Below are positions 1,852 to 13,894 of a DNA stretch of 15,767 nucleotides, one piece after another (the stretch's first letter is position 1; each line of letters begins with the position of its first letter). The stretch is from NCBI GenBank assembly GCA_001898095.1, contig MKSH01000002.1, positions 29,379-45,145 on the forward strand, read 5' to 3'. The notes under the pieces were generated by a model. That model had not been told where the DNA came from. It searched no databases and worked only from the letters and a program-made list of their open reading frames with translations. This DNA comes from Solirubrobacterales bacterium 70-9 (GTDB lineage Bacteria > Actinomycetota > Thermoleophilia > Solirubrobacterales > 70-9). A program made the position numbers and the translations under genes.

Positions 1852-2207
1852 CCCAAGCCGGTGTCGGTCCACAGGGTGGATTGGCGCCGGAGGAGATTTC
1901 GGTCCCGGCCTGGGCGTGAGGACAGGGACGCTGCCTTCCTCGAACCAGCACCCAAGTTCGGGGTGATCTTGTCGCGCGGCGAAGGCCACGTCGACCGCGA
2001 AGCAGGGGATTCTCCTCCAGCAGCGCCCCACTGCGTCCGCCGTGGTTGAGGGGATGTCTGGCGACCGCGGCGTCGGCGATGAACAGGTTGAACACCGGTG
2101 TCTCTAAGTTTCGCCCGGCCTCTGGATCAAGGCCCTCAGCGACGCATTCAGGTCGGTGGGCGGTCCGCGATCGTCGCGGACGAAGAAGGCCCCTGCTGTC
2201 ATGATGA
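1852..2207. other. Gene-poor stretch, possibly decayed minus-strand coding DNA
   Basis: I see no intact gene here. The minus strand carries pieces that read like protein in different frames: MTAGAFFVRDDRG onward from ATG 2202 to TAG 2104, then TPVFNLFIADAAVARHPLNH just beyond that stop, then AVDVAFAARQDHPELG in a third frame. A sequence of open pieces that switch frame is what a frameshifted gene would look like, but I cannot name the family and GC-rich DNA often gives such pieces by chance. The 32-codon piece at 2104-2202 has no ribosome site; its start is 6 bases from the palindrome at 2208-2233. Confidence 0.3.
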
Positions 2208-2233
2208 CTGGAATTAGGGTGCCCTAATTCCAG
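2208..2233. promoter_or_regulatory. DtxR/IdeR-like iron box upstream of the AraC-type regulator
   Basis: This is a perfect inverted repeat with 12-base arms, CTGGAATTAGGG and CCCTAATTCCAG, around a central TG. Its core TTAGGG-TG-CCCTAA (2214-2227) recurs identically at 6021-6034. TTAGG/CCTAA half-sites are typical of iron-dependent DtxR-family repressors. It lies 33 bases before the ATG at 2266, where a repressor would block the promoter of the regulator gene. Binding by DtxR/IdeR is inferred; the site is shorter in its centre than the classic 19-base corynebacterial box. Confidence 0.7.
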
Positions 2234-2265
2234 GAATCGGGACGAACGCCATCGATGTTTGCGAT

Positions 2266-3051
2266 ATGACCACGAACGGACTTCTGATCTCGTCCAACTC
2301 CCCGCAATCGAGCCAGATGACGCCGGTGATCTCGGTCAACCGGCGGGAAATCGTCGAGGAGTGCCCGCTCGAGCCGCGGATGCGGCAGGACCGCCACCGA
2401 TTGATCTGGGCCCCGGCGGGGGCGCTGGCGATCCAGACCGACGGGCAGGACTGGGTGTTGCCGCCGACGCGGGCTCTCTGGATCCCGCCCGGGGTGACCT
2501 GTCGCTCGCGCGCGCTGGGCACGAGGGTGCTCTACCGGGTCGGGATCGCGGTCGAGGGGTCGCCGGTGCAGTGGCGGAAGACGACGAGCGTCGCCGTGAG
2601 CCCGCTGATCCGGGAGCTGATCTCTTTTCTGGGGCGTCAGCGGGGCGCCCGTGAGGTGCGGCGCGACGCCGAGCGCCTTCTCCTCGATCTGCTCGGGGCG
2701 GGTGAGGTCGAGGCGATCGACGTGCCGTTGCCCCGCGATCCACGGGCACTGGCGGTGGCCGAGGCGCTGATCGACGCCCCTGACGACGGCCGCGACCTCG
2801 GCGCCTGGGGGAGCGAGGTGGGAGCAAGCATCCGCACGCTGGCTCGCCTGTTCGCCTCGGAGACCGGGATGACCTTCGTCCAGTGGCGCCCCCAGGTACG
2901 GATGCGGGCGGCGCTGGTCCTGCTGGCCGACGGCGAGCGGGTCGGGACCGTCGCCCGCCGCGTCGGCTACGCCGGGCCGAGCGCGTTCACCACCGCCTTC
3001 CGCCGCGCTATGGGCTGCAGCCCGGGGGAGTGGGTGGCGGAGTTCGCCTGA
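2266..3051 (+). CDS. AraC-family transcriptional regulator
   Basis: The gene encodes 261 residues with the layout of a cupin-type AraC regulator. An N-terminal sensing domain (about 40-95) holds HRLIWAPAGALAIQTDG and LPPTRALWIPPGV. The C-terminal DNA-binding domain (about 165-258) has two helix-turn-helix units. The second contains GTVARRVGYAGPSAFTTAFR followed by the signature G-x-S/C-P-G-E-W, matching the family pattern for the end of the domain. No clear ribosome site precedes ATG 2266; ATG at codon 18 is an alternative start. A palindromic iron box ends 33 bases upstream, so expression probably rises in iron shortage. In Corynebacterium, the AraC-type regulator RipA is likewise controlled by DtxR. 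The downstream gene is convergent. It probably senses a siderophore or tunes the nearby iron genes, but the ligand is unknown. Confidence 0.88.
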   Translation: MTTNGLLISSNSPQSSQMTPVISVNRREIVEECPLEPRMRQDRHRLIWAPAGALAIQTDGQDWVLPPTRALWIPPGVTCRSRALGTRVLYRVGIAVEGSPVQWRKTTSVAVSPLIRELISFLGRQRGAREVRRDAERLLLDLLGAGEVEAIDVPLPRDPRALAVAEALIDAPDDGRDLGAWGSEVGASIRTLARLFASETGMTFVQWRPQVRMRAALVLLADGERVGTVARRVGYAGPSAFTTAFRRAMGCSPGEWVAEFA

Positions 3052-3061
3052 GCCCCGGCGA

Positions 3062-3103
3062 GCGGGCCGGCCTCCACCCCGTGCGGGCGAAGGCCGGCCC
3101 CGC
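3062..3103. terminator. Bidirectional hairpin between convergent genes
   Basis: GCGGGCCGGCCT at 3062-3073 pairs with AGGCCGGCCCCGC at 3091-3103 (12 pairs, one bulged C) around a 17-base loop. It fills the 57 bases between the stop of the AraC-type gene and the stop of the beta-propeller gene and can serve both strands. There is no run of T, as is usual in GC-rich actinomycetes. Confidence 0.55.
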
Positions 3104-3108
3104 TGGTC

Positions 3109-5940
3109 CTACTTGAGGCCGACCAGGGCTTCCTGGTCCTTGGCCAGCTTCTTCTTTGCGCCGGCCTGCTTGGACTTCAGCCCCTTCAGCTCCTTGCGCA
3201 GGCCCTGGAGCTTCTTTTCCAGCCGCTTGACCTTCTTTGCGGCCGCGGCCTGCTCGGCCCTGGAGCCGTTCTTGGCCGCCTTGCGTGCCGCGATCACCTG
3301 CTTCTTGACCTTCGTCACCTTGACCGTGGCCTTGGTGACCGCCTTTTCGATCTTCACGATCGCCTGCTTGTCGGAGCTGACCAGCTGGGTCGCCTTGGCG
3401 ATCTTTTCGGTCACGGTCGAATCGGGCGTCGGGGTAGGGCCGGGCTCGGTCGTCACCGGAGGCTCGACCGGCGTCTCCGCGGCCGTGGGTTCGACCTGAA
3501 CCTTCACCGCGATCGAGCGGACCGTGTCACCCCCCTTCAGCGAGCCGGTGAGCAGGCGGAGATGCTGGCCGTCGCCCGCTTCCCAACCGTTGGGGAAGGG
3601 CACGTCGGCCGACCAGTTGCCCTGAGCGTCGGCTTCGAATTCGGCGATCGTCGGCGAACCCGGGACGCTGGCCGACTTCACCGCGATCTTCGAGCCGGCG
3701 GTACCGTCCGCGGTGCGGAAGTTGGTGCCTTCGATGTGGATCGGCCGGCCCTCGATCACGGTCACGCTCAAAGGGGTGGTCGCGGCGTTCCCGGTGACCG
3801 AGCCGGCGGTCGGGTCGAGGACATCGACCCCACCCACGGTCTCGAGCCGCGGCGTGATCTTCCACACCCTGTTGGTCGCCGCCTTGTCGACGACGAAGGC
3901 GTCGCCCCGGTCGTCGATCGAGATGTGGTTCGCCGTCGCGATCGGCAGCGAGGCGATCTCGTCGCCGTCGGCGTCGAGGACGCTGACCGAGGTGCCGCCG
4001 AAGTTGGCGACGTAGGCCAGCCGGTGGACGGGGTCGAAGACCACGTTCAGCGCCTGCCGGCCGGTCGGGACCTCCTTGATCGTGGCGCCGGTGGTCGCGT
4101 CGGCGACCACGACCTCGTTGCTGTTCTGGCTGGCGATGAAGAGGCGGTCGTCCGCCACGTCGTAGGCGATGCCGGAGGCGCCGCGGCCGCCGACGTCGAT
4201 GCCGTCGATTTCGAGGAAGGTCGGCGCGTAGCCGACGTCGAGCACGTGGGCGGTGTCGATCGAGACCACCTTGTTGCTGCCCAGGCTGGGCGAGAACAGC
4301 TTGCCGTCGCCCAGGGTCAGGGAGACCGGGTTGAAGACGTCCCGGGTACCGGTCTGGATGTCGGTGAGCTTTTCGTAGGGCGTGCCGTTGCCGTTCTTGT
4401 CGTCGGCCTCGAAGACCGAGATGTAGCCGAGCGAGCTCGCCGACGATCCCTCGCTGGCGGAGCTGACGAAGACCAGTTCGGTCGTCGGGTCGTAGACGAC
4501 GTCACGCGAGTGGCTGATCGTTTCGGCCGGGAACTGCTTGACCAGGCTCAGGTCGCTCTCCTTGTAGACGGCGACCGAGTTGGACCCGGTGTTGCTGACC
4601 CAGACGTTGCCGTGGACGTCGTCGACGCCGATCCCGAAGGCACCGGCTTTGGCGAAGTCGGGGTTCACGGTTTCCTTCGACGCCTCGATTGCGAGGGTGT
4701 CGGGGTCGAGCTTGTAGATGAAGCCGGCGTTGCCGGTGCCGCGATCGGACGCGGTCACGTAGAGGGCATCTTCGGTGGCGCTGTAGGCCGACTGGTAGAA
4801 GCCCTGGTAGAAGGCCGCGGTCGAGGAGATGACGTCGAAGCGCCCGGCTCCGACCGTGCTCTCGTCGGGGTAGACGGCCTGGCTCAGGGTGTAGGTACGG
4901 GCTTCGGGCGTCGCCTGCGTGATCACCAGCGACTGCGTGATCGGCGACATGCTGCGGGGGATCGTGTAGGAGGCGGTGGCTTTGCCTTCGCCGTTGGCAG
5001 CCAGGTTGGTGGCCAGCGTCTGATCGCCGAGCTGCACCGAGGAGATCGTCGCCCCGGCGACCAGGTTGCCGAGCGTCAGCGTGCCGGTGGCGCCGAGCGA
5101 GGTGCCGCCGCCGAAGCTGACCGACGGGGGGACCACGACGGTGACGTCTTCGTCGGTGCCCTGATCGCCGGTGATCGTGAGCGTGAGCGGCCCGGCCGGC
5201 GCGACACCGGCGGCGAGGACCACGCTGGCGCTGATCGTGCCGGTGGAACCCGCCGTGATGGTGTCTTTCAGTTCCGTCTGGCGACCGTTTTTCACGCTCC
5301 ACTGAAGCGGGGTGGAGTCGTGTTTGACCGAGAGCACCTCGCCGGCCGGGAAGGTGCCGCCGGAGAAGGTGACCGTGACTTTGTCGTCCGTCGCGGTGGT
5401 GGCGGTAGACACCAGGCCTTCGCCGATGGTGAAGGTGAGAAGGACGCTGCGCGGGGTGTCACCGCTCTCCATCGAGCCGGTCAGCAGTCGCAGCGTATGG
5501 GTGGTGCCGACGGCCCACGGGGACGCCAGCGCCGGGTTGGTGTTGGTCGCGGTCGGGAAGGGGATGTCGGCACTGAAGGTGCCGTCGTCCTCGGCCTCGA
5601 CCGCGTCCCAGACGTCGAACTCGTCGGCGGAGGTGCCGGTGGCAGGGTTGATCACCGGGCCGGAGGCGGGCTCGGTGGTGACCGCGTCGCCGAGCTTGAC
5701 GCCGATCGTCGAGCCGGTGCCGTTGGTCGGGTGGGTCCAGCCGGTGCCTTCGATGTGGATCGCGCTGCCGCCGGCGACGATGTCGGCGACCGTGGCGGTC
5801 GCGCCGTCGCCTGCCGTCACGGTGTCGGCGCAGGCCGGGCTGATCGCCGCGGGCAGGGCGGTGAACATCGAGATGCTGAGGACGGCACCGACGATCGCGG
5901 CCACGACTCGACCGGCGGATCGCGAGACTCTCAAACTCAT
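3109..5940 (-). CDS. Large exported beta-propeller protein with two surface modules and a Lys-rich tail
   Basis: The gene encodes 943 residues. The start is ATG 5940, because AAGGAG lies 4 bases before it; an in-frame TTG at 5955 would place that site inside the gene. In order: signal peptide (1 to about 38, ending near AISPACA); module 1 (about 40-173, with IHIEGTGW and HTLRLLTGS); Ig-like region (about 180-355); a YncE/YVTN-type beta-propeller (about 365-700) with repeats such as NVWVSNTGSNSVAVYK, RLFIASQNSNEVVVADATTG and LAYVANFGGTSVSVLDADGD; module 2 (about 705-806, with IHIEGTNF and HLRLLTGSL); a Pro/Thr linker; and a Lys/Ala-rich coiled coil (about 835-943). There is no LPXTG or membrane anchor, so the basic tail may hold it to the wall. 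An iron box lies 80 bases upstream. E. coli YncE, a periplasmic propeller, is also iron-regulated. An extracellular role in iron capture is inferred. Confidence 0.85.
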   Translation of the reverse strand: MSLRVSRSAGRVVAAIVGAVLSISMFTALPAAISPACADTVTAGDGATATVADIVAGGSAIHIEGTGWTHPTNGTGSTIGVKLGDAVTTEPASGPVINPATGTSADEFDVWDAVEAEDDGTFSADIPFPTATNTNPALASPWAVGTTHTLRLLTGSMESGDTPRSVLLTFTIGEGLVSTATTATDDKVTVTFSGGTFPAGEVLSVKHDSTPLQWSVKNGRQTELKDTITAGSTGTISASVVLAAGVAPAGPLTLTITGDQGTDEDVTVVVPPSVSFGGGTSLGATGTLTLGNLVAGATISSVQLGDQTLATNLAANGEGKATASYTIPRSMSPITQSLVITQATPEARTYTLSQAVYPDESTVGAGRFDVISSTAAFYQGFYQSAYSATEDALYVTASDRGTGNAGFIYKLDPDTLAIEASKETVNPDFAKAGAFGIGVDDVHGNVWVSNTGSNSVAVYKESDLSLVKQFPAETISHSRDVVYDPTTELVFVSSASEGSSASSLGYISVFEADDKNGNGTPYEKLTDIQTGTRDVFNPVSLTLGDGKLFSPSLGSNKVVSIDTAHVLDVGYAPTFLEIDGIDVGGRGASGIAYDVADDRLFIASQNSNEVVVADATTGATIKEVPTGRQALNVVFDPVHRLAYVANFGGTSVSVLDADGDEIASLPIATANHISIDDRGDAFVVDKAATNRVWKITPRLETVGGVDVLDPTAGSVTGNAATTPLSVTVIEGRPIHIEGTNFRTADGTAGSKIAVKSASVPGSPTIAEFEADAQGNWSADVPFPNGWEAGDGQHLRLLTGSLKGGDTVRSIAVKVQVEPTAAETPVEPPVTTEPGPTPTPDSTVTEKIAKATQLVSSDKQAIVKIEKAVTKATVKVTKVKKQVIAARKAAKNGSRAEQAAAAKKVKRLEKKLQGLRKELKGLKSKQAGAKKKLAKDQEALVGLK

Positions 5941-6020
5941 GACTCTCCTTGTCAAAGAGGGGAACGATTGGCGCTCGAGCGGCGAGACATCCGTGATCGC
6001 GAGCGAGACGGCACCCCTAT

Positions 6021-6034
6021 TTAGGGTGCCCTAA
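6021..6034. promoter_or_regulatory. DtxR/IdeR-like iron box upstream of the propeller gene
   Basis: TTAGGGTGCCCTAA has the same 14-base core as the site at 2214-2227. It lies in the 184 bases between the end of the leftward three-gene operon and the start of the propeller gene, 80 bases before that start on the minus strand. Read on the minus strand it runs into CCCTAAATAGG, where TAAATA could be a -10 element, so binding would cover the promoter. The site gives the propeller gene its own promoter besides any read-through. Confidence 0.65.
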
Positions 6035-6103
6035 TTCATCGTAGGGATGCGCAGAGCCGCCGAACGGCCAATCTGTTCCGCGAACCAGCCAAGTGAGAGA
6101 CGA

Positions 6104-6122
6104 CCGGCCGTGCGCCGGCCGG
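6104..6122 (-). terminator. Hairpin just after the three-gene operon
   Basis: CCGGCCG (6104-6110) and CGGCCGG (6116-6122) form a perfect 7-base-pair stem with a 5-base loop. It begins 3 bases past the stop codon of the gene ending at 6125 on the minus strand and is followed by a T/C-rich stretch. It probably ends the leftward operon before the separately controlled propeller gene. Confidence 0.5.
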
Positions 6123-6124
6123 AG

Positions 6125-7297
6125 TCAGCCGACTTTGATCCGGAACACACGCGTCTTCGCAGCGCTCGAGAGCGAGATCTTCACCGTGGTCGGCCCTTCC
6201 TGCTTGGCCCAGGCGCGGCCGGCCGCGGTCAGTGGCAGTCGGGCGATTCCCTTGAGCAGGCGCGTGGTGCCCCGGGCGAGGGTCAGGACCCGCTTCTTGC
6301 CCTGCGGGCTCAGGCGGACCTTGGTGGCGGTCTGGACGGCGATCTTGACCTTCGCCCCGGAGCCGCCGGCGAGGGTCAGGGCGAGCTTGCCGTTCGCGAT
6401 CCAGGCCTTCCTCACCGCCGGGATCGCGATCGTCGGCGTCGGGGTGGTCGTGACCGCGCCGCCGCCCGAGGTACCGGTGGACCCGGACTCGCCGGACGGT
6501 ATGGTCGGCGTCGCCAGGACGGTGAGGGAGAGGGCCTGGCTCCGGGCAGGGGGCTGGAGGACGCCGGAGCCGCTCACGCATTCGCTGCCGGCCAGGAGGC
6601 GCACGGCGTGTTCGCCGGGCTCGGTGCCGGCGGGGACGGTGACCGTCCCGACCCCGTTGCCTTCGCTGTCGGTCTGGACGCAGCCGAGCGTCGCTCCGGC
6701 GTCGATCTTCAGCGCCACCTTCTGGCCGCCGCCCGCTTCCGCGGTCCAGCCCGAGACCGTGAGCGTGAGCGTGTCGCCGACCTGGGCCGAGGTCGCGCTC
6801 AGCGAGGCCGTCGGCGGGGCGGTGACGGCGACCGGCCCGGAGACGCTGATCGCGGTCGTTTTCTTGTCGCCGGTACTGGCCGTGCCGGAGAGGAAGTACA
6901 GCGTGTGTTCGCCCGCGACGAAGGAGGTGGGGATTTCGATCCAGCCCTCGAAGGTGCCGTCGTCGGCCGCTTCGAACCAGATCGATGCACCGGCGACGGT
7001 GCCGGTGTAGGCATCGGCGCCGCCGAACGCCCAGGCAACGGCCGCTTTGTCGACTTTCACCGCGACCAAGGGCTGGCCCGTCGTGCCCGAGGCGGGGGTG
7101 AAGCCCGCGCCTTCGATCTCGATCCGCTCACCCGCCACATAGCGGCCCGAGTCGATCGTCACCGAGGCGCCGGTTGCCGCCTGTTCGAATTTGACCGGCG
7201 CGGCGAGGGCCGTCGGGGCGACGATCAGCGCCAGCAGGGCGAGGACGATGGATGCGGTCGCGGCCGTCAGGGTGGGCCGCTTGCGGTGGATGAGCAT
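6125..7297 (-). CDS. Exported protein with two surface modules and a beta-rich tail
   Basis: The gene encodes 390 residues from ATG 7297, with AAGGAG 4 bases before the start. Residues 1 to about 33 are a signal peptide (LALLALIVAPTALAA). Module 1 (about 42-153) contains RIEIEGAGF, LVAVKVD, DGTFEGWIEIP and GEHTLYFLSGT. Module 2 (about 157-253) contains TLTLTVSGW, VALKIDAG and GEHAVRLLAGS. Two cysteines, 206 and 230, fall in module 2 and could form a disulfide. A Ser/Gly/Thr/Pro linker (about 258-284) leads to a basic, beta-rich domain of about 105 residues. The fold of the modules is probably Ig-like. It is third in a leftward operon, 31 bases after the preceding stop. There is no membrane anchor. 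Its place beside a siderophore importer and iron boxes suggests extracellular iron handling; this is inference from context, as I recognise no catalytic or haem-binding motif. Confidence 0.82.
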   Translation of the reverse strand: MLIHRKRPTLTAATASIVLALLALIVAPTALAAPVKFEQAATGASVTIDSGRYVAGERIEIEGAGFTPASGTTGQPLVAVKVDKAAVAWAFGGADAYTGTVAGASIWFEAADDGTFEGWIEIPTSFVAGEHTLYFLSGTASTGDKKTTAISVSGPVAVTAPPTASLSATSAQVGDTLTLTVSGWTAEAGGGQKVALKIDAGATLGCVQTDSEGNGVGTVTVPAGTEPGEHAVRLLAGSECVSGSGVLQPPARSQALSLTVLATPTIPSGESGSTGTSGGGAVTTTPTPTIAIPAVRKAWIANGKLALTLAGGSGAKVKIAVQTATKVRLSPQGKKRVLTLARGTTRLLKGIARLPLTAAGRAWAKQEGPTTVKISLSSAAKTRVFRIKVG

Positions 7298-7328
7298 GTG
7301 ACTCCTTCTCGATTCGATTCGTCGTCGG

Positions 7329-8225
7329 TCAGCGGGCGAGGAGGACCGGCCAGCTCTGCGCTTCGCCGGCGGCCGGCCGGAGGAGCAGGCGGGCGGCCAA
7401 CCGGTCGCGGTCGGCCAGGATGCGCCGGCCGGCGACGGTGAGGTTGATCCGCAGCGTCTTCGTCTTGCCGCCGGCCACCCGGTAACCGCCGCGGGCGAGG
7501 ACGGCCTTGGCGCGCGGCGAACCCGGGCCGGCGACCGGCACCTTGTGGGCGGCGCGCAGGACGACCCGCCCTGATGCGCCCGCGGCGCCGGCCTGGATGC
7601 GCAGCGCCACGCTCCGGCCCTGCAGCGCCAACTTGTGGTCGAGCAGCTTCAGGCTCGCGGCGGCCACGGTCGTTTCGGTGGCCGTCGTGCCGCCGCCGGG
7701 CGTCGGTGCGGAAGTCGATTCGCAGGTCCCGGTCATCCGGAACTTCGCCGTCAGGCTGCGCGGCGTCCCTCCCTGCGCCCAGGAGCCGGAGAGGAAGCGC
7801 AGCCAGTGTTCTTTGCCGGGACTGCAGAGGTCGGTCGGGATCTTGTCCTTGGCGCCGCCTTTTTCTCCTTCGTGTGCCGCCGGGTCGGTGGACACCGTGG
7901 CGCAGAGGTCGCCGGCCGCGTCGGGGGTGAACGGCCCGATGCCGTAGGCACCGAAGTCGTCGAACTTGACCATGAACTGCTGGCCGACCGAGCTGCCGCC
8001 CGTTTCGACCCGGAAGTTGTGGACGCAGAAGCCCACCGCCCCCTTCTGGGCGACTTCGGGGGTCGTCACTTCCACCGACCCAGGCGGGGTCCCGGCGACT
8101 TCGACCGCGCCGGAGGCCGGCTCGGCTCCGGCCCGCGACGCCGTCGGACCGCCGAGGACGAGAAGCGCGAGAACCACCAACGGCGCGATGAAGAGCGCCC
8201 GGGTCCGACCGTGCGCCACCGTCAT
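7329..8225 (-). CDS. Exported single-module protein with four cysteines
   Basis: The gene encodes 298 residues. The start is ATG 8225, whose ATGA overlaps the stop of the gene before it (8222-8224), so the two are probably translationally coupled. The frame is open further upstream, but that part is the shadow of the neighbour. Residues 1 to about 34 are a signal peptide (LFIAPLVVLALLVLG, cleavage near RAGA). The module spans about 55-164 and has VGFCVHNF, FMVKFDD and KEHWLRFLSGS followed by GGTPRSLTAKFRM. Cysteines 67, 108, 134 and 168 lie in or just after the module and could make two disulfides, unlike the other copies. A Thr/Pro/Gly linker (about 170-186) joins a basic beta-rich C-terminal domain like that of the next gene. 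Function unknown; a ligand-binding surface protein of the iron operon is the best inference. Confidence 0.82.
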   Translation of the reverse strand: MTVAHGRTRALFIAPLVVLALLVLGGPTASRAGAEPASGAVEVAGTPPGSVEVTTPEVAQKGAVGFCVHNFRVETGGSSVGQQFMVKFDDFGAYGIGPFTPDAAGDLCATVSTDPAAHEGEKGGAKDKIPTDLCSPGKEHWLRFLSGSWAQGGTPRSLTAKFRMTGTCESTSAPTPGGGTTATETTVAAASLKLLDHKLALQGRSVALRIQAGAAGASGRVVLRAAHKVPVAGPGSPRAKAVLARGGYRVAGGKTKTLRINLTVAGRRILADRDRLAARLLLRPAAGEAQSWPVLLAR

Positions 8226-8635
8226 CGGGTGGCCCGCAGCACGGTGAACTTGCCGCTGCGGATGCTGGTCGGCGGTTTGGAGGCGAGGAAGCGCAGCCAG
8301 TGCTTGCCGAGGCTGATGTGCTTCGGGATCGGCACCCAGCCGGAGAACTTCTTCTGCTTGATCTTCAGCACCGCGAGGATGTCGAGGTCGTCCAGCTTCA
8401 CGGTCACCACCGGGCTGTCGTAGAGCCGCGAGCCCTTTGCCTTCCAGTTCCAACCTTCGACGTGGATGCGTCCGCCGGCCCGCACCGTGGACCGGTCCAA
8501 TTGGATGTGGCCGCCGTTTGCCTGGGGTTCGGGACCACCGGGCGGGATCGCCCCGGCGGGGCCGGGCGAGAGGAGGCTGAAGGCGAGGGCTGCGGCGACG
8601 AGTGCGAGCGCCTGTCGGGCGGCGGGGCGGGACAT
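8222..8635 (-). CDS. Small exported single-module protein
   Basis: The gene encodes 137 residues, little more than a signal peptide and one module. I chose ATG 8635 because GAAAGGA lies 5 bases upstream; a much longer open frame exists, but it runs back through the iron boxes and the divergent gene. The signal peptide ends near GPAGA (about 29). The module (about 42-134) shows RIHVEGWNW, VVTVKLDD, KKFSGWVPIP and GKHWLRFLAS, matching the other copies at every landmark. It has no linker or C-terminal domain, so it may show the minimal functional unit. It is the first gene of the leftward operon, divergent from the siderophore receptor, and two iron boxes lie 35-69 bases upstream of its start. 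An extracellular carrier or co-receptor role is inferred. Confidence 0.82.
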   Translation of the reverse strand: MSRPAARQALALVAAALAFSLLSPGPAGAIPPGGPEPQANGGHIQLDRSTVRAGGRIHVEGWNWKAKGSRLYDSPVVTVKLDDLDILAVLKIKQKKFSGWVPIPKHISLGKHWLRFLASKPPTSIRSGKFTVLRATR

Positions 8636-8669: not shown

Positions 8670-8704
8670 TTAGGCATACCTAATAGAGCTTTAGGCATGC
8701 CTAA
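8670..8704. promoter_or_regulatory. Tandem DtxR/IdeR-like iron boxes in the divergent promoter
   Basis: TTAGGCATACCTAA (8670-8683) and TTAGGCATGCCTAA (8691-8704) are separated by 7 bases. Their starts are 21 bases apart, two helical turns, so two dimers would sit on the same face of the DNA. The pair lies between the leftward module operon (start 8635) and the rightward uptake operon, so one regulator could control both. The half-sites match those at 2214 and 6021, but the centres differ (CATA/CATG versus GGTGCC). Confidence 0.72.
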
Positions 8705-9746
8705 CCGACGAATCGACAACCCTGTCCCGACGGGACGTGCGGGGCGGGGATCCGCTCTGCAGCTGGCTTTCCTGCTGCTCTTGCTAGGGGCTCTCGGGGT
8801 GCTGGCCGGTTGCGGCGGAGGCTCGATCGGGACCACCGACGGGGCGACCCGGACCTACACCGACGTCGCCGGCAACAAGCTCACGATCCCCGTCCGGCCG
8901 CAGCGGGTCGTCGCCCTCAGCGAGCCCAGCCTCGACGACTCGGTGGCCCTCGGAGTGACGCCGATCGCGACCACCGCCGGCCGCGGCCAAGGGACGATCT
9001 CCGCCTACCTGCAGGGCAAGGTCGAAGGGATCGGGACGGTGGGGATCCTGGGCCAGCCGAACATCGAAAAGATCGCCGCCCTGGCGCCCGACCTGATCCT
9101 CACCGACGGTACCGCGATCCTCGACGGCTCGATCGTCGAAAAGCTGCAGGCGATCGCGCCGGTCGTCGACGTCAGCAAGACTGGCGAGAACTGGAAGACC
9201 GCCTTCCTGGCGACCGCCGACATCCTCGGCCGGCAGGCGCGGGGCAAGGCCCTGATGGCCGAATACGACGCCCGCGTGAAGAGCGTCAAGTCGAGGCTCG
9301 GGGCCAACGCCGACGCCGAGGTCAGCATCGTCCGTTGGGGCGGCATCGGCCTGCCGGCGGTCCTGATGAGGGAGCTCGCGGCGAGCCGGGTGCTGAGCGA
9401 CCTCGGCCTGCGGCGGCCGCCGTTCCAGGATCAGCAGGGACCCGGTCACTCGGTCCCGGTCGGCCTCGAATCCCTTTCCGATATCGACGGCGACTGGATC
9501 TTCTTCGGCTCGCTCGGCGAAGGCGGCCCGAGCGGCGGCGTCTCCGAGAAGCCCGCCGACGTCGCCTCGGCGGAAGAAGCGATGCGGATCGCCGAAGACG
9601 AAACCCCGGGGTTCAAGCGCCTGCGGGCATATCGCCTCGGCCACATCGTGCCGGTCGACGGATCGGCCTGGACCAGTGCCGGCGGCTACCTGGCCGAGCA
9701 GGTCGTCCTCGACGACGTCGAACGGGCCCTGGACGAAGGATCGTGA
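8697..9746 (+). CDS. Iron-siderophore ABC transporter, lipoprotein substrate-binding protein
   Basis: From ATG 8697 this encodes 349 residues. The N-terminus is a lipoprotein signal: basic n-region, hydrophobic LAFLLLLLGALGV, and lipobox LAGC with Cys39 as the lipidation site. The rest fits the FecB/FhuD/BtuF family (periplasmic-binding type III): RVVALSEPSLDDSVALGV, then NIEKIAALAPDLILTDG, a long helix region, and the C-terminal RLRAYRLGHIVPVDG with a final helix ending ERALDEGS. Anchored outside the membrane, it should deliver a ferric siderophore to the permeases encoded downstream. The start is uncertain: the ATG lies inside the second iron box, with no ribosome site, which suggests a leaderless message or a non-ATG start further in. 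The stop overlaps the next start (GTGA). Substrate class is firm; the exact siderophore is unknown. Confidence 0.92.
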   Translation: MPNRRIDNPVPTGRAGRGSALQLAFLLLLLGALGVLAGCGGGSIGTTDGATRTYTDVAGNKLTIPVRPQRVVALSEPSLDDSVALGVTPIATTAGRGQGTISAYLQGKVEGIGTVGILGQPNIEKIAALAPDLILTDGTAILDGSIVEKLQAIAPVVDVSKTGENWKTAFLATADILGRQARGKALMAEYDARVKSVKSRLGANADAEVSIVRWGGIGLPAVLMRELAASRVLSDLGLRRPPFQDQQGPGHSVPVGLESLSDIDGDWIFFGSLGEGGPSGGVSEKPADVASAEEAMRIAEDETPGFKRLRAYRLGHIVPVDGSAWTSAGGYLAEQVVLDDVERALDEGS

Positions 9747-11023
9747 GCGTCGCCGCGGGGCCCCGCCGTCCCCCGGGCCGGCCGAAGCAGCCGCCGCCGA
9801 CGGTGGTGCCGAGTCCGCGGGTCGAGCGGCTCGCGCGTGAACTTTCCTCCGGCCCCGACGCGACCGCCCGCTTCTGGGAGGAGGTGCGGCACGAGGGCAC
9901 GCCGCTGGTCGAGCCGGCAGAGGCGGTGGAGGAACGCGTCGTCACCTTCCTCTGGCGCGACCCAGGTGGGGCCGCGGCGGGGGAGAGGACGGTCGCCCTA
10001 CTGGCGAACAAGCTGACCGACCCGAGCGTCTGGCAGGAGAGCCGGCTCGAGCGCCTCGCCGGGACCGACGTCTGGCACCGGAGCTACCTGATGCGCGCCG
10101 ACTGGCGGGCGACCTACCAGCTCGCGGTCGCGGATCAGGGCGAGGGCGAGGTCGAGGGGCCGGCCGCCGGCCCGATGTCGCGGTGGCGCGGGCTCGTCGC
10201 CGCCGCCGGTCACGATCCGCTGAACCCGGAGCGGTTCCCGGCTCGCGACGGCGGCGCCGAGCTCTCCGTCGTCGCCTTGCGGGAGGCGCCGGCGCAGCCG
10301 TGGTGCGAGGAGCGCCCCGAGGTCGAGAGCGGTGTGGTGCGGGAGACGACGATCGAGAGCGGCGCGTTGGGCGAGGCGAGGCGGCTCTGGGTGCGAAAGC
10401 CGGTGCGGCCCGGGCCGGCGGGTCTGCTCGTCCTCCTTGACGGCGAGGACTGGGTCGGCCGCCTCGGCGCGCCGGCGATCCTCGACAACCTCGAAGCCGA
10501 GGGCCGGATCGCGCCCTTGGTGGCGGTGATGGTCGATTCGCTCGACCGCGAACGTCGCTGGCGCGATCTCGCCTGCGCTCCCGATTTCATCGAGTTCCTC
10601 TCCGCCGAGCTAGTCCCCTGGGTGGGTGCCCGCCGCGACCTCGACCGGCGGCGGACGACGATCGCCGGCCAGAGCCTCGGCGGTCTGACGGCGCTCTGCG
10701 CGGCGACCCGCGCGCCGGATGTGTGGGGTGGCGCGATCGCGCAAAGTTCCTCGCTCTGGCTGGCACCGGAGGGCGACGGTGACGGCGTCGGCTGGGACTT
10801 CAGGGAGATCGCCGAGCGGCCCCCGACAGGCACCCGCCTCCGGATCGAAGTCGGCCTGCAGGAGTGGATCCTCCTCGCCGACCATCGGCGGCTCCGCGAC
10901 CTCCTCGCCGAGGCCGGTGTCACCGTCGATTACGTCGAGTACGAAGGCGGGCACGACGCGATCTGTTGGCGCGGTGGCCTCGCCGAGGCGCTCCTCGATC
11001 TGTCCCCCGCGGACGCCGGATGA
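9743..11023 (+). CDS. Enterochelin-esterase-type siderophore hydrolase
   Basis: The gene encodes 426 residues from GTG 9743, overlapping the receptor stop by 4 bases, with GAAGGA 2 bases upstream. The N-terminal domain (about 35-150) matches the Fes/IroD N-terminal region: VVTFLWRDPGG, ANKLTDPSVWQESRLERL and DVWHRSYLMRADWRATYQL, followed by DPLNPERFP. The C-terminal part is an esterase-D-like alpha/beta hydrolase. Its nucleophile is Ser311 in AGQSLGGLTAL, its likely catalytic histidine is His404 in GGHDAICW, and LLDGEDWVGR precedes as the usual early strand motif. There is no signal peptide, so it acts in the cytoplasm. Enzymes of this family cleave the triester backbone of imported ferric catecholate siderophores such as enterobactin or bacillibactin, releasing iron. 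Its place between receptor and permease genes fits. The true substrate could be another ester siderophore. Confidence 0.9.
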   Translation: MSVAAGPRRPPGRPKQPPPTVVPSPRVERLARELSSGPDATARFWEEVRHEGTPLVEPAEAVEERVVTFLWRDPGGAAAGERTVALLANKLTDPSVWQESRLERLAGTDVWHRSYLMRADWRATYQLAVADQGEGEVEGPAAGPMSRWRGLVAAAGHDPLNPERFPARDGGAELSVVALREAPAQPWCEERPEVESGVVRETTIESGALGEARRLWVRKPVRPGPAGLLVLLDGEDWVGRLGAPAILDNLEAEGRIAPLVAVMVDSLDRERRWRDLACAPDFIEFLSAELVPWVGARRDLDRRRTTIAGQSLGGLTALCAATRAPDVWGGAIAQSSSLWLAPEGDGDGVGWDFREIAERPPTGTRLRIEVGLQEWILLADHRRLRDLLAEAGVTVDYVEYEGGHDAICWRGGLAEALLDLSPADAG

Positions 11024-12021
11024 GCATCGCCGCACGCCGTTGGTCGGCACTCGGTCTCGGCCTCGCGGCGCTGCTGGCGACCGCGATCCTGGCGGTGGCG
11101 GTCGGCACCAGATGGATCGCGCCCGCCGAAGTCTGGGACGCGCTGTTCGCCGGTGGCCACGGGGCGAACGGCGAAATCGTGCGTAACTTGCGGCTGCCGC
11201 GCCTGCTGCTGGGGCTCGAGGTCGGCGTCGCGCTCGGCCTCGCGGGGGCGCTGATGCAGGCGTTGACCCGCAATCCGCTCGCCGACCCCGGCCTCCTCGG
11301 CGTCAACGCCGGCGCCGCCACCGCAGTCGTCCTCGCGACCGCCCTCCTCGGCCTCAGCCGGCTCACCGAGTACGTCTGGTTTGCCTTCCTCGGCGCGGCG
11401 GTGGTCTCCCTGCTCGTCTACGCCCTCGGCTCGCGCGGGCGCTCGGAGGCGACACCGGCGCGGATGGCGCTGGTCGGCACCGCGGTCACCGCGGCGCTCT
11501 CCTCGTTCGTCGCGGCAATGATCCTGTTGCAGCCGCAGGTCTTCCGCCAGTTCCGCTTCTGGGAGCTCGGCTCACTGGCGGGCCGCGGGTTCACCGTGGT
11601 TGCGCAGGTCGCCCCTTTCGTCTTCATCGGGGCGTTGCTGGCACTGGCGCTCGGGGGCCGTCTCAACGCCCTTGCCCTGGGCGAGGACAAAGGCCGGGCC
11701 CTCGGGGCGCATCCCGGACGCATCCGCGGCGCCGGCGCCGTCGCTGTGACCCTCCTCTGCGGGGCGGCGACCGCGGCCGCCGGGCCGATCGCCTTCGTCG
11801 GGCTGACCGTGCCGCACCTGGCGCGGGCGATCACCGGCCCCGATCAGCGCTGGGTCCTGACGCTCTCCCTGGTCTTCGCGCCCGCGCTCCTGCTCATCGC
11901 CGACGTCGTCGGCCGGGTGGTCGACCGCCCCGGGGAAGTGCAGGTCGCCGTCGTCACCGCCTTCCTCGGGGCGCCGATCTTCATCGCGATCGTCCGCCGC
12001 CGAAGGATCGCCCGCCTGTGA
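11020..12021 (+). CDS. FecCD-family iron-siderophore permease, first subunit
   Basis: The gene encodes 333 residues and begins at ATG 11020, overlapping the esterase stop (ATGA). It is an integral membrane protein with about ten hydrophobic segments. Family landmarks are LRLPRLLLGLEVG, then GALMQALTRNPLADPGLLG near the third segment, ARALGAHPGRIRG-type cytoplasmic coupling sequence (here GRALGAHPGRIRG), and AAAGPIAFVGLTVPHLAR, the conserved stretch before the last helices. The protein should pair with the next gene product to form the channel across the cytoplasmic membrane, fed by the lipoprotein receptor and driven by the ATPase. It is comparable to FepD/FecC. The length is normal for the family and I see nothing missing. 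Confidence 0.93.
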   Translation: MSIAARRWSALGLGLAALLATAILAVAVGTRWIAPAEVWDALFAGGHGANGEIVRNLRLPRLLLGLEVGVALGLAGALMQALTRNPLADPGLLGVNAGAATAVVLATALLGLSRLTEYVWFAFLGAAVVSLLVYALGSRGRSEATPARMALVGTAVTAALSSFVAAMILLQPQVFRQFRFWELGSLAGRGFTVVAQVAPFVFIGALLALALGGRLNALALGEDKGRALGAHPGRIRGAGAVAVTLLCGAATAAAGPIAFVGLTVPHLARAITGPDQRWVLTLSLVFAPALLLIADVVGRVVDRPGEVQVAVVTAFLGAPIFIAIVRRRRIARL

Positions 12022-13085
12022 AGCTGCGCGCCGCCGGCCCCGCCAGCCTGCCTTCGCGGACGATCACGGTCCGCCGCCGCGGCCTCTCGATCGCCCTGCC
12101 GCTGCGCGGGGCGCTCGCCGTGCTCCTCATCCTGTTCGCCCTCGTCCCGGTCTTCGTCGCCGCCCTCGCCGTCGGCGAATACCCGCTCTCCTGGGGGGAC
12201 GTGGTGCGGACGCTCTTCGGCGAAGGCACCCCGCAGTCGGAATTCATCGTCGAGACGCTGCGCCTGCCGCGTGTCCTCGACGCGATCCTGGTCGGCGCGG
12301 CGCTCGGCGTCGCCGGGGCGGTCTTCCAGAGCGTCACCCGCAATCCGCTCGGCAGCCCCGACGTGATCGGCTTCACCCAGGGGGCCGCGGCGGGGGCGGT
12401 GCTGGAGCTGGTCGTCTTCGGCGGCGGCACCCTGGCGGTTTCGGCCGGGGCGGTGGCGGGCGGTGTGATCACCGCGGCGCTGGTCTACCTGCTCGCCTAC
12501 CGCAACGGTCTGCAGGGATACCGGCTGGTCCTCGTCGGCATCGGCTTCAGCGCGATGCTGGCCGCGGCGACCGCCTACCTGATCGCCCGCGCCGACCTCG
12601 ACGCGGCCCAAGGCGCGCAGATCTGGCTGGTCGGCAGTCTCAACGGGCGGGGTTGGGAGCACGTGGTCCCGGTCGCCGCCGCGCTCGCCCTGCTGCTGCC
12701 CGCCGCGCTGGCGCTCGCCCCGGCGCTGCGGACGCTCGAACTGGGGGATCGCGCGGCGGGCCCGCTCGGCGTCGCGGTCGAGCGCTCGCGGCTCTTCGCG
12801 ATCGCCGCCGGGGTCGGGCTGACGGCGGTGGCGACCGCGTCGGTCGGGCCGGTCGCCTTCGTCGCCCTGGCCTCGCCGCAGCTGGCCCGGCGGCTGACCC
12901 GGACCAGCGGCCCCGGCCTGCTCGGCGCCGCGGCGATGGGGGCCTTCGTGCTCGCGTTGAGCGACTTCCTCGCCCAGCGGCTCTTCCCCTCGACGCCGTT
13001 GCCGGTCGGGGTCTTCACCGGTGCGCTCGGCGGGCTCTACCTCCTCTGGCTGCTCTCGACCGAGCTGCGGGGGGCGGGCCAGTGA
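12018..13085 (+). CDS. FecCD-family iron-siderophore permease, second subunit
   Basis: The gene encodes 355 residues from GTG 12018, which overlaps the previous stop by 4 bases. A basic N-terminus of about 30 residues precedes the first membrane segment (GALAVLLILFALVPVFVAAL). The family motifs are LRLPRVLDAILVGAALGVAG, VFQSVTRNPLGSPDVIGFTQG, a coupling region around RAAGPLGVAVERSR, and ASVGPVAFVALASPQLARRL. It is comparable to FepG/FecD, and with the upstream subunit makes a heterodimeric channel. Two different permease genes in a row, as here, are typical of catecholate or citrate siderophore importers, whereas B12 and haem importers usually use one gene twice. The next gene again overlaps by 4 bases. 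Confidence 0.93.
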   Translation: MKLRAAGPASLPSRTITVRRRGLSIALPLRGALAVLLILFALVPVFVAALAVGEYPLSWGDVVRTLFGEGTPQSEFIVETLRLPRVLDAILVGAALGVAGAVFQSVTRNPLGSPDVIGFTQGAAAGAVLELVVFGGGTLAVSAGAVAGGVITAALVYLLAYRNGLQGYRLVLVGIGFSAMLAAATAYLIARADLDAAQGAQIWLVGSLNGRGWEHVVPVAAALALLLPAALALAPALRTLELGDRAAGPLGVAVERSRLFAIAAGVGLTAVATASVGPVAFVALASPQLARRLTRTSGPGLLGAAAMGAFVLALSDFLAQRLFPSTPLPVGVFTGALGGLYLLWLLSTELRGAGQ

Positions 13086-13894
13086 GGGGGGAGGACTCCG
13101 TCCGCCTCGCCGGCTCGGCGCTCGAGCTGGGCTACGACGGCCCGGTCGTCGGCCCGGACCTCGATATCGAGATCCCCGATGGCTCCTTCACCGTCATCGT
13201 CGGGCCGAACGCCTGCGGCAAGTCGACCTTGCTGCGGGCGATGGCGCGGGTGCTGAAGCCGCGGGCGGGCGCCGTCCTCCTCGACGGCAAGGAGCTTGCG
13301 CGCTGGCGCGGCAAAGACGCGGCTCGTGTCCTCGCCATGCTGCCCCAGGATCCCCACGCTCCCGACTCGATCCTCGTCCGCGACCTCGTCTCCCGCGGCC
13401 GCTATCCCCACCAGACGTTGCTGCGTCAGTGGTCGGGGGAGGACGAGGCGGCGGTCGCGGCGGCCCTGGCGGCGACCCACACGGAGGACCTCGCCGACTG
13501 CACCGTCGACGAGCTCTCCGGAGGCCAGCGGCAGCGCGTCTGGCTGGCGATGGCACTCGCCCAGGAGACCCCGCTCCTCCTCCTCGACGAGCCGACCACC
13601 TTCCTCGACATCGCTCACCAGCTCGACATCCTCGAGCTCTGCGCCGACCTCCACGAACAGGGCCGCACCGTCCTCGCCGTGCTCCACGACCTGAACCAGG
13701 CCTGCCGCTATGCGACCCACCTGATCGTCATGGGCGAAGGCCGCATCGTCGCCGCCGGAGAGCCCGACTCGATCCTCGACGAGGGGCTGGTCGAGGACGT
13801 CTTCGGCGTCGCCTGTCGCCTGATCGCCGACCCCGAGACGGGGACGCCGATGATCGTGCCGCGTGCGCGTCGTCCGGGCGCGAAGGGGCGATGA
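13082..13894 (+). CDS. FepC-type siderophore ABC transporter ATPase
   Basis: The gene encodes 270 residues from GTG 13082, with a 4-base overlap with the permease stop. All ATPase motifs are present: Walker A GPNACGKST (41-49), Q-loop Gln89 in MLPQDPH, signature LSGGQ (145-149), Walker B LLLLDEP (165-171), D-loop FLD, and the switch His202 in VLHDLNQA. The phrases SRGRYPHQ and LDIAHQLDILEL are typical of the FepC/FhuC group. It binds ATP in the cytoplasm and powers import through the two permeases. It is the last clear gene of the five-gene operon. A possible 26-codon frame overlaps its stop, followed by hairpins. No residue needed for catalysis is missing. Confidence 0.94.
   Translation: MRGEDSVRLAGSALELGYDGPVVGPDLDIEIPDGSFTVIVGPNACGKSTLLRAMARVLKPRAGAVLLDGKELARWRGKDAARVLAMLPQDPHAPDSILVRDLVSRGRYPHQTLLRQWSGEDEAAVAAALAATHTEDLADCTVDELSGGQRQRVWLAMALAQETPLLLLDEPTTFLDIAHQLDILELCADLHEQGRTVLAVLHDLNQACRYATHLIVMGEGRIVAAGEPDSILDEGLVEDVFGVACRLIADPETGTPMIVPRARRPGAKGR

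Follow-up and report, generated by a model that had tools for sequence, protein, structure and literature searches.

An undescribed surface module in four exported proteins beside a putative enterobactin-type importer of an actinobacterium

The DNA considered here, referred to as the window, is a stretch of 15,767 nt from Solirubrobacterales bacterium 70-9 (GCA_001898095.1, contig MKSH01000002.1, positions 29,379-45,145 of the forward strand; own genome G000, 4.2 Mb, 84% complete). Four exported proteins of 943 (948 in the open reading frame, ORF), 390, 298 and 137 residues, denoted p948, p390, p298 and p137, are encoded on its minus strand at 3109-8635; divergently from them, on the plus strand from 8697, lie genes for a FecB-like lipoprotein, an esterase, two permeases and an ATPase. 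We propose, with a probability of about 0.6, that the four proteins provide surface capture of ferric catecholate in an iron-repressed, enterobactin-type uptake system. That these proteins, which share a common module, belong to a siderophore uptake system is well supported; binding of ferric catecholate by the module itself is a more tentative proposition. New here is an undescribed surface domain within a known kind of process, siderophore uptake: the literature searched, mostly outside subscription journals, contained no description of the module or of such a locus.

Module copies and the propeller of p948

A first-pass annotation made from the sequence alone had claimed six copies of one module in the four proteins. 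Profile searches and hhalign comparisons bear this out, with two of the copies remote and one degenerate. A hidden Markov model (HMM) derived from 11 modules, all taken from other genomes and none from the window, recovered both copies in p948 and the first copy in p390 (Table 1); it covered the first part only of the second p390 copy, matched the C-terminal part of p298 weakly (0.032) and gave no match in p137. A type-A profile of 20 rows, three of them window copies, was searched against the whole 4.2-Mb genome at E <= 0.01 and yielded exactly six matches, all inside the genes of p948, p390, p298 and p137. The copies outside this profile scored 1.1e-4 (second copy of p390), 8.1e-4 (p298) and 0.008 (p137), the last being borderline, near the threshold. 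By hhalign, for which the E-values are single-pair values, the module profile was aligned with the p137 family (probability 97.1, E = 5.3e-11) and with p137-like proteins from four other actinobacteria (96.0, 4.2e-9), and p298 was aligned with the p137-type profile (96.1, 3.7e-9) and the type-A profile (89.2, 2.2e-6). As judged by these comparisons, the six copies exceed chance; p298 and p137 are remote members, joined to the module mainly through profile comparison, and the second copy of p390 is degenerate.

The strongest invariant is the lysine of the VK strand, a landmark of the first-pass annotation that is retained in 20/20 type-A rows and 15/15 p137-type rows. In the p137-type alignment, Lys80, Trp113 and Arg115 are each present in all 15 rows. 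The proposal that the 137-residue protein displays the minimal unit also held, p137 consisting of a signal peptide and a single module; the N-termini of all four proteins are signal-peptide-like by eye. Neither the 14 relatives of p298 nor the 11 relatives of p137 (the query excluded in each case) carry a Pfam domain.

The module was rightly called unrecognised: no family covering it was found in Pfam, NCBIfam or the sequences of the Protein Data Bank (PDB), and thus the family searches placed it in no known family with a non-iron role. A 35-residue match to AglB_L1 (PF18079; 25.9 bits, cut-off 23.6) within one module of the Cellulomonas locus L010, seen in 1 of 10 proteins scanned, was set aside, as none of the other module proteins showed it. 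Matches below the Pfam cut-offs were found inside the modules of p390 (GEVED, 0.0022) and p137 (MG2, 0.1), the latter in agreement with the fold search, since the AlphaFold2 (AF2) model of p137 is an immunoglobulin (Ig)- or macroglobulin-like sandwich (mean predicted local distance difference test score, pLDDT, 83.9). Computation thus supports a real family without a Pfam entry, with a predicted Ig-like sandwich in p137.

An HtaA identity was ruled out by Pfam and by the lack of type-A modules in 11 HtaA-containing loci of this and other genomes. PF04213 (HtaA/CR) matched neither the four window proteins (E <= 1) nor the module proteins scanned from other genomes (E <= 0.1), and all PF04213 matches in the own genome lie on contigs other than that of the window, which upholds the earlier view that the module differs from HtaA. 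There was likewise no Pfam match to NEAT in the four window proteins at E <= 1. Near a sub-cut-off HtaA match in locus L068, a 317-residue ORF (2169-3122) has a weak p137-type module match (2.3e-5).

The 943-residue protein is, according to its AF2 model (mean pLDDT 87.0), largely a YncE-like seven-bladed propeller, which the first-pass annotation did not mention. The modelled order is signal peptide, module, two Ig-like domains, propeller, module and C-terminal coiled coil. The seven-bladed fold of YncE is reproduced in this model; by sequence, p948 scores 68.6 bits against NF052280 (YncE), under the equivalog cut-off of 400. At E <= 1, p948 had no Pfam match to DUF4374, the family of XusB; its match to DUF5074 (1e-4) is below the cut-off of that family, and XusB structures are absent among the best 50 matches listed by either fold search. 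At E <= 1e-3, p948 has 48 relatives in addition to itself, the two lowest-ranking of which are weak; precomputed Pfam domains such as PF16640 are present in some of the 48.

A one-genome-per-species scan placed p948 relatives in 39 loci, and the six best by E-value (L010-L015) are all actinobacterial; the others are mostly loci of proteobacterial YncE-like proteins, with six from Streptomyces. Among the 33 loci L016-L048, 14 have within 6 kb a long neighbouring ORF with an aromatic final residue, and all 8 of these ORFs that were scanned encode TonB-dependent receptors. It is thus suggestive that proteobacterial YncE-like genes often lie near such a receptor, the choice of rows favouring receptors. 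One of the loci, L027, titled Bacillus subtilis SK7B5, carries a YncE locus that resembles those of Stenotrophomonas and includes a TonB-dependent receptor; it probably represents contamination or a mislabelled contig.

The adjoining importer and its conservation

The esterase of the window scores 268.4 bits against the enterochelin esterase model NF007758, above the curated cut-off of 222; its relatives in Patulibacter (L060, 212) and in L010 (216) fall just under it. Aligned with Fes (2b20), the window protein keeps GQSxGG (as GQSLGG) and GGHDAxCWRGGL (as GGHDAICWRGGL), which we take to be the catalytic Ser and His motifs of Fes. The NCBIfam comparison of transporter components covered permease 2, the ATPase and the binding protein. 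The best matches of the first two are the enterobactin permease (326 bits, cut-off 422) and the enterobactin ATPase (323.1 bits, cut-off 497), and the FecB-like protein is closest to a FecB-type model (83.7 bits, cut-off 320), with 46.7 bits against FepB (cut-off 205), so that none of the three reaches the FepBDGC equivalog cut-offs. The FecB-like protein has a lipobox, LAGC, by eye, and its PDB relatives include YfiY, FeuA-type proteins and FepB. From these matches, the locus looks like one for enterobactin-type uptake.

Similar loci occur in other actinobacterial genera. In Cellulomonas (L010), Microbacterium (L012) and two Nocardioides (L013 and L014), genes for propeller, FecB-like, multi-module and p137-like proteins are each grouped with those for two FecCD permeases, an ATPase and Fes; the esterase of L014 was unreported by blastp within the stored stretch, and PF11806 places it 6.4 kb from the modules. 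The module proteins of these four loci end, by eye, in a hydrophobic stretch and a basic tail. The Patulibacter locus has the gene order of the window, propeller / p390 / p298 / p137 divergent from the importer genes, with identities of 66% for FecB, 44% for Fes and 68% and 64% for the FecCD permeases. The place of p948 is taken there by another, more distant propeller gene (28%), and the Patulibacter propeller found by the scan lies about 53 kb from Fes. L015 is at a contig end, the remainder of its locus being on other contigs (L061 and L062). A p137-like gene with HWLRFLAS or HTLRFLAS was present in 7/7 loci compared (the window, L010, L012, L013, L014, L060 and L061).

Linkage was counted in 14 genomes with the module, namely the own genome, G396-G401 and seven more from a sample of 198 genomes. 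Fes is found once per genome in G396-G401 and is no more than 15 kb from a module copy in all six; over the 14 genomes, it is that close to at least one copy in 13 (exception G419), and FecCD is that close in 13 (exception G559). Since FecCD genes are common, with 4 to 11 matches per genome in seven genomes, the Fes count is the telling one. The 198 genomes represent one Nocardioides family and were drawn around the genome of L013, itself one of the 8 in the sample with the module; 12 genomes have Fes, and all 8 are among these 12 (Fisher 9.8e-12), with Fes within 15 kb in 7/8 and FecCD within 15 kb in 7/8. The module was not seen in 4 of the 12 Fes genomes. A census of 396 genomes of the phylum at E <= 1e-6 found the module in at least one, the own genome; both counts are lower bounds, as up to 11 candidates per genome were scored in the census and up to 22 in the sample. 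In G559, modules occur together with Fes and with no FecCD nearby; in G419, they are near FecCD and far from Fes. Thus, computation supports a genetic tie of the module to a Fes-type esterase and a Fec/Fep-like ATP-binding cassette (ABC) importer across actinobacterial genera. Separation of the homologues from FecBCD-type importers, named beforehand as evidence to the contrary, is confined to such exceptions.

Probable ligand and predicted iron control

Genes resembling those for enterobactin synthesis adjoin two of the uptake loci: entA-, entC- and entE-like genes and one for an EntF-like nonribosomal peptide synthetase (NRPS) in L013 (12606-21223), and entE- and EntF-like genes in L014 (14051-21565). 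Among these, the curated cut-off was passed by entC only. L013 also encodes an isochorismatase with a carrier domain. The NRPSs beside L013 and L014 have one condensation domain each, and EntF is the best model of both (aligned over 3-1291 of 1292 and over 4-1173, respectively), with scores far under its cut-off. In Patulibacter, an EntF-like NRPS lies about 16 kb from Fes; in G396, a condensation domain is encoded on a contig other than that of the module locus. No NRPS condensation domain was found in the window genome (84% complete), G398 or G401, and these therefore probably use foreign siderophores; the window bacterium probably takes the siderophores of others, although its incomplete genome could hide a cluster. 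The esterase, the Fep-like best matches and the neighbouring ent-like genes together make an enterobactin-type ferric catecholate the probable ligand. The importer encoded beside the module genes had earlier been assigned to siderophores in general; this partnership is retained, with co-occurrence of FecBCD genes added and the probable ligand narrowed.

Exact TTAGGNNNNCCTAA palindromes number 13 in the 4.2-Mb genome, against 0.7 expected and 0 in a reversed control. Each of the 13 lies beside genes interpreted as acting in, or regulating, iron or metal uptake, and 4 are in the window (Table 1). The genome thus has a palindrome shared by iron-gene promoters, as expected of a DtxR/IdeR-type regulon; against the 19-base DtxR consensus, the best site in the window has 4/19 mismatches. 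Two exact boxes each precede the HtaA genes of contigs C35 and C215, and no exact box was found at the HtaA-like gene of C6. On C35 (L007, 6381-10495), the HtaA locus adjoins binding-protein, permease and ATPase genes; on C215 (L008), an HtaA domain and a long propeller-like protein are fused, judging by eye. The remaining five boxes, on C10, C14, C52, C222 and C250, mark a small predicted iron regulon: genes with confirmed families beside boxes encode an FTR1 permease, an EfeO-like M75/cupredoxin protein and a PepSY_TM protein, an adjacent ABC importer is Fbp-type by eye with its permease confirmed (PF00528), and a further box lies close to a gene that looks NRAMP-like by eye. When the pattern was relaxed, boxes appeared close to propeller genes, FecB genes or both in L011, L013, L014 and L060, the one at 9804 of L013 being the only exact one among them; there was none in L010, L012 or L015, and the same pattern had 0 matches in 531 kb of loci L016-L041. 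The earlier description of the locus as iron-regulated accordingly stands as a prediction from boxes, the same as those on two of the three contigs that carry HtaA in this genome.

RipA and other AraC regulators are known to be under DtxR control; the AraC gene of the window, lying behind its own predicted box, may encode a siderophore sensor or a second-tier regulator akin to RipA. Upstream of it, positions 631-1851 encode a possibly exported protein with no Pfam match. The window contains no tRNA and no Rfam family at the gathering threshold, and blastp with the locus proteins gave no match in its flanks (L005 and L006).

Table 1. Coordinates of the features in the window (i-E, independent E-value)
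Feature	Position	Strand	Remarks
Predicted iron box TTAGGGTGCCCTAA	2214-2227	.	upstream of AraC gene
AraC-type regulator	2266..3051	+	HTH_18 1.1e-21; own box upstream
p948	3109..5940	-	943 aa from ATG 5940; ORF opens TTG 5955 (948)
Module copy 2 (p948, after propeller)	3481..3792	-	i-E 7.8e-12, HMM free of window sequence
YncE-like seven-bladed propeller of p948	3850..4839	-	converted from AF2 model residues 356-685
Module copy 1 (p948, N-terminal)	5410..5811	-	i-E 1.5e-38, HMM free of window sequence
Predicted iron box TTAGGGTGCCCTAA	6021-6034	.	upstream of p948
p390	6125..7297	-	exported, two modules
Module copy 4 (p390 second, degenerate)	6509..6829	-	limits set by hand; i-E 2.7e-5
Module copy 3 (p390 first)	6809..7174	-	i-E 8.5e-10, HMM free of window sequence
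p298	7329..8225	-	exported; one divergent cysteine-bearing module, about 7728-8123
p137	8222..8635	-	signal peptide and one module (about 8225-8548); minimal unit
Predicted iron box TTAGGCATACCTAA	8670-8683	.	between p137 and FecB-like gene
Predicted iron box TTAGGCATGCCTAA	8691-8704	.	p137/FecB-like interval; overlaps ATG taken as FecB-like start
FecB-like substrate-binding lipoprotein	8697..9746	+	Peripla_BP_2 1.1e-21 (ORF taken from 8688)
Enterochelin (enterobactin) esterase, Fes	9743..11023	+	Enterochelin_N 3.6e-32, Esterase 3e-26
FecCD-type permease 1	11020..12021	+	PF01032 8.5e-86, over Pfam cut-off
FecCD-type permease 2	12018..13085	+	best NCBIfam match, enterobactin permease
ABC ATPase	13082..13894	+	best NCBIfam match, enterobactin ATPase

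Proposed capture and relay, and the alternatives

In the mechanism that we propose, p948, with its propeller and modules, would capture the ferric siderophore outside the cell, and p390, p298 and p137 would carry it inwards, perhaps handing it on from one module to the next. Delivery to the FecB-like lipoprotein would fall to p137, the permeases and ATPase would import it, and Fes would cleave the ester in the cytoplasm, freeing the iron. We infer this capture and relay from the domain architecture, from the one-module p137 accompanying the importer genes in each of the seven loci compared, and from the precedents of haem transport by HtaA/CR proteins (PMC12494546) and of XusB, a surface seven-bladed propeller of Bacteroides that binds ferric enterobactin (PMC13142918). 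Whether through the module or through the YncE-like propeller of p948, siderophore binding is likewise inferred; a site in the module may perhaps involve the invariant VK-strand lysine and the Trp-x-Arg of the HWLR strand, whose exposure is guessed from strand alternation.

Against such a role, the module could serve as a mere scaffold while binding falls to the propeller or the FecB-like protein. The Ig-like modules would then have a structural task, as spacers by which the proteins are projected or anchored, and the siderophore would be bound only by the propeller and the lipoprotein, which we consider rather unlikely. A plain spacer hardly needs a one-module protein, and p137, little beyond one module, is kept beside the importer with its invariant Lys80, Trp113 and Arg115; propeller-free module proteins of the p390 and p298 type are likewise retained. 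The Ig- or macroglobulin-like sandwich is, on the other hand, a common spacer fold, the modules of p948 flank its propeller, and it is with a propeller that XusB binds ferric enterobactin (PMC13142918). A p948 relative accompanies the importer in L010, L012, L013 and L014, though p948 served to find these loci; in Patulibacter, the close propeller relative is far removed from it.

A second alternative overlaps the proposed mechanism in all but the ligand, which would be another ester-bearing catecholate, cellulochelin- or fuscachelin-like, in place of an enterobactin-type trilactone. The cellulochelins of Cellulomonas Leaf334 have two 2,3-dihydroxybenzoate (DHB) units and a ten-membered macrolactone (PMC13251462), esterases may open other esters, and the low EntF scores of the NRPSs agree with such a ligand; the Nocardioides NRPSs, with one condensation domain and EntF as best model, appear unlike the longer cellulochelin assembly, and we regard this alternative as improbable. 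That the four proteins are analogues of HtaA/HtaB passing haem to the importer is very hard to sustain: the organisation resembles Corynebacterium hta-hmu loci, the box is that of the HtaA loci on C35 and C215 and CR domains are likewise beta-sandwiches (PMC12494546), but the module proteins have no HtaA domain, the HtaA loci examined have no type-A module, the genome has a separate HtaA locus beside binding-protein, permease and ATPase genes, and Fes and the ent-like genes indicate a catecholate.

The proposed uptake system shares with enterobacterial Fep/Fes an esterase over the cut-off and a permease and ATPase closest to enterobactin transporter models; unlike Fep/Fes, it adds module-bearing surface proteins, its transporters are under the equivalog cut-offs and its binding protein is nearer to the FecB model than to FepB. 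In Corynebacterium, HtaA and HtaB relay haem to HmuTUV under iron-box control. As there, exported beta-sandwich domains in several proteins would feed a binding-protein ABC importer; in contrast, the window proteins lack PF04213, the importer is paired with an enterochelin esterase and the HtaA loci are separate. In the NEAT-domain haem relay (Isd) of Firmicutes, serial surface domains pass the ligand to a lipoprotein, as is proposed here, whereas the window proteins have no NEAT match and their ligand is apparently a siderophore. The XusB/XusA system also combines a seven-bladed propeller, present in p948 by model, with ferric catecholate import, and an operon homologous to that of XusB carries a gene possibly hydrolysing the siderophore (PMC13142918). 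Unlike XusB/XusA, the window has no TonB receptor gene among its identified genes, and the p948 propeller is YncE-like, has Ig-like domains on either side and lacks a DUF4374 match. E. coli YncE shares with p948 the propeller fold and a weak sequence match; yncE is in the Fur iModulon tables, listed as 'function unknown' (PMC10164565), and is thus linked to iron, as p948 is predicted to be from the box upstream of its gene. Unlike p948, YncE structures consist of the propeller alone, about 320 residues.

In the usual picture of siderophore uptake by Gram-positive bacteria, the siderophore diffuses freely across the wall until it meets a membrane lipoprotein. If the proposed mechanism is correct, an undescribed domain and a YncE-type propeller would serve some actinobacteria as a dedicated means of capturing ferric catecholates at the surface. 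The module would then, in a reading we hold as possible and no firmer, be the founding siderophore-relay domain of Gram-positive walls, an Ig-like unit that binds ferric catecholate and passes it from the propeller protein to the lipoprotein. The 137 residues of the one-module p137 make a first test of this simple. The mechanism would also suggest a testable role for E. coli YncE and would give the module a part in siderophore transport comparable to that of NEAT and CR domains in haem transport.

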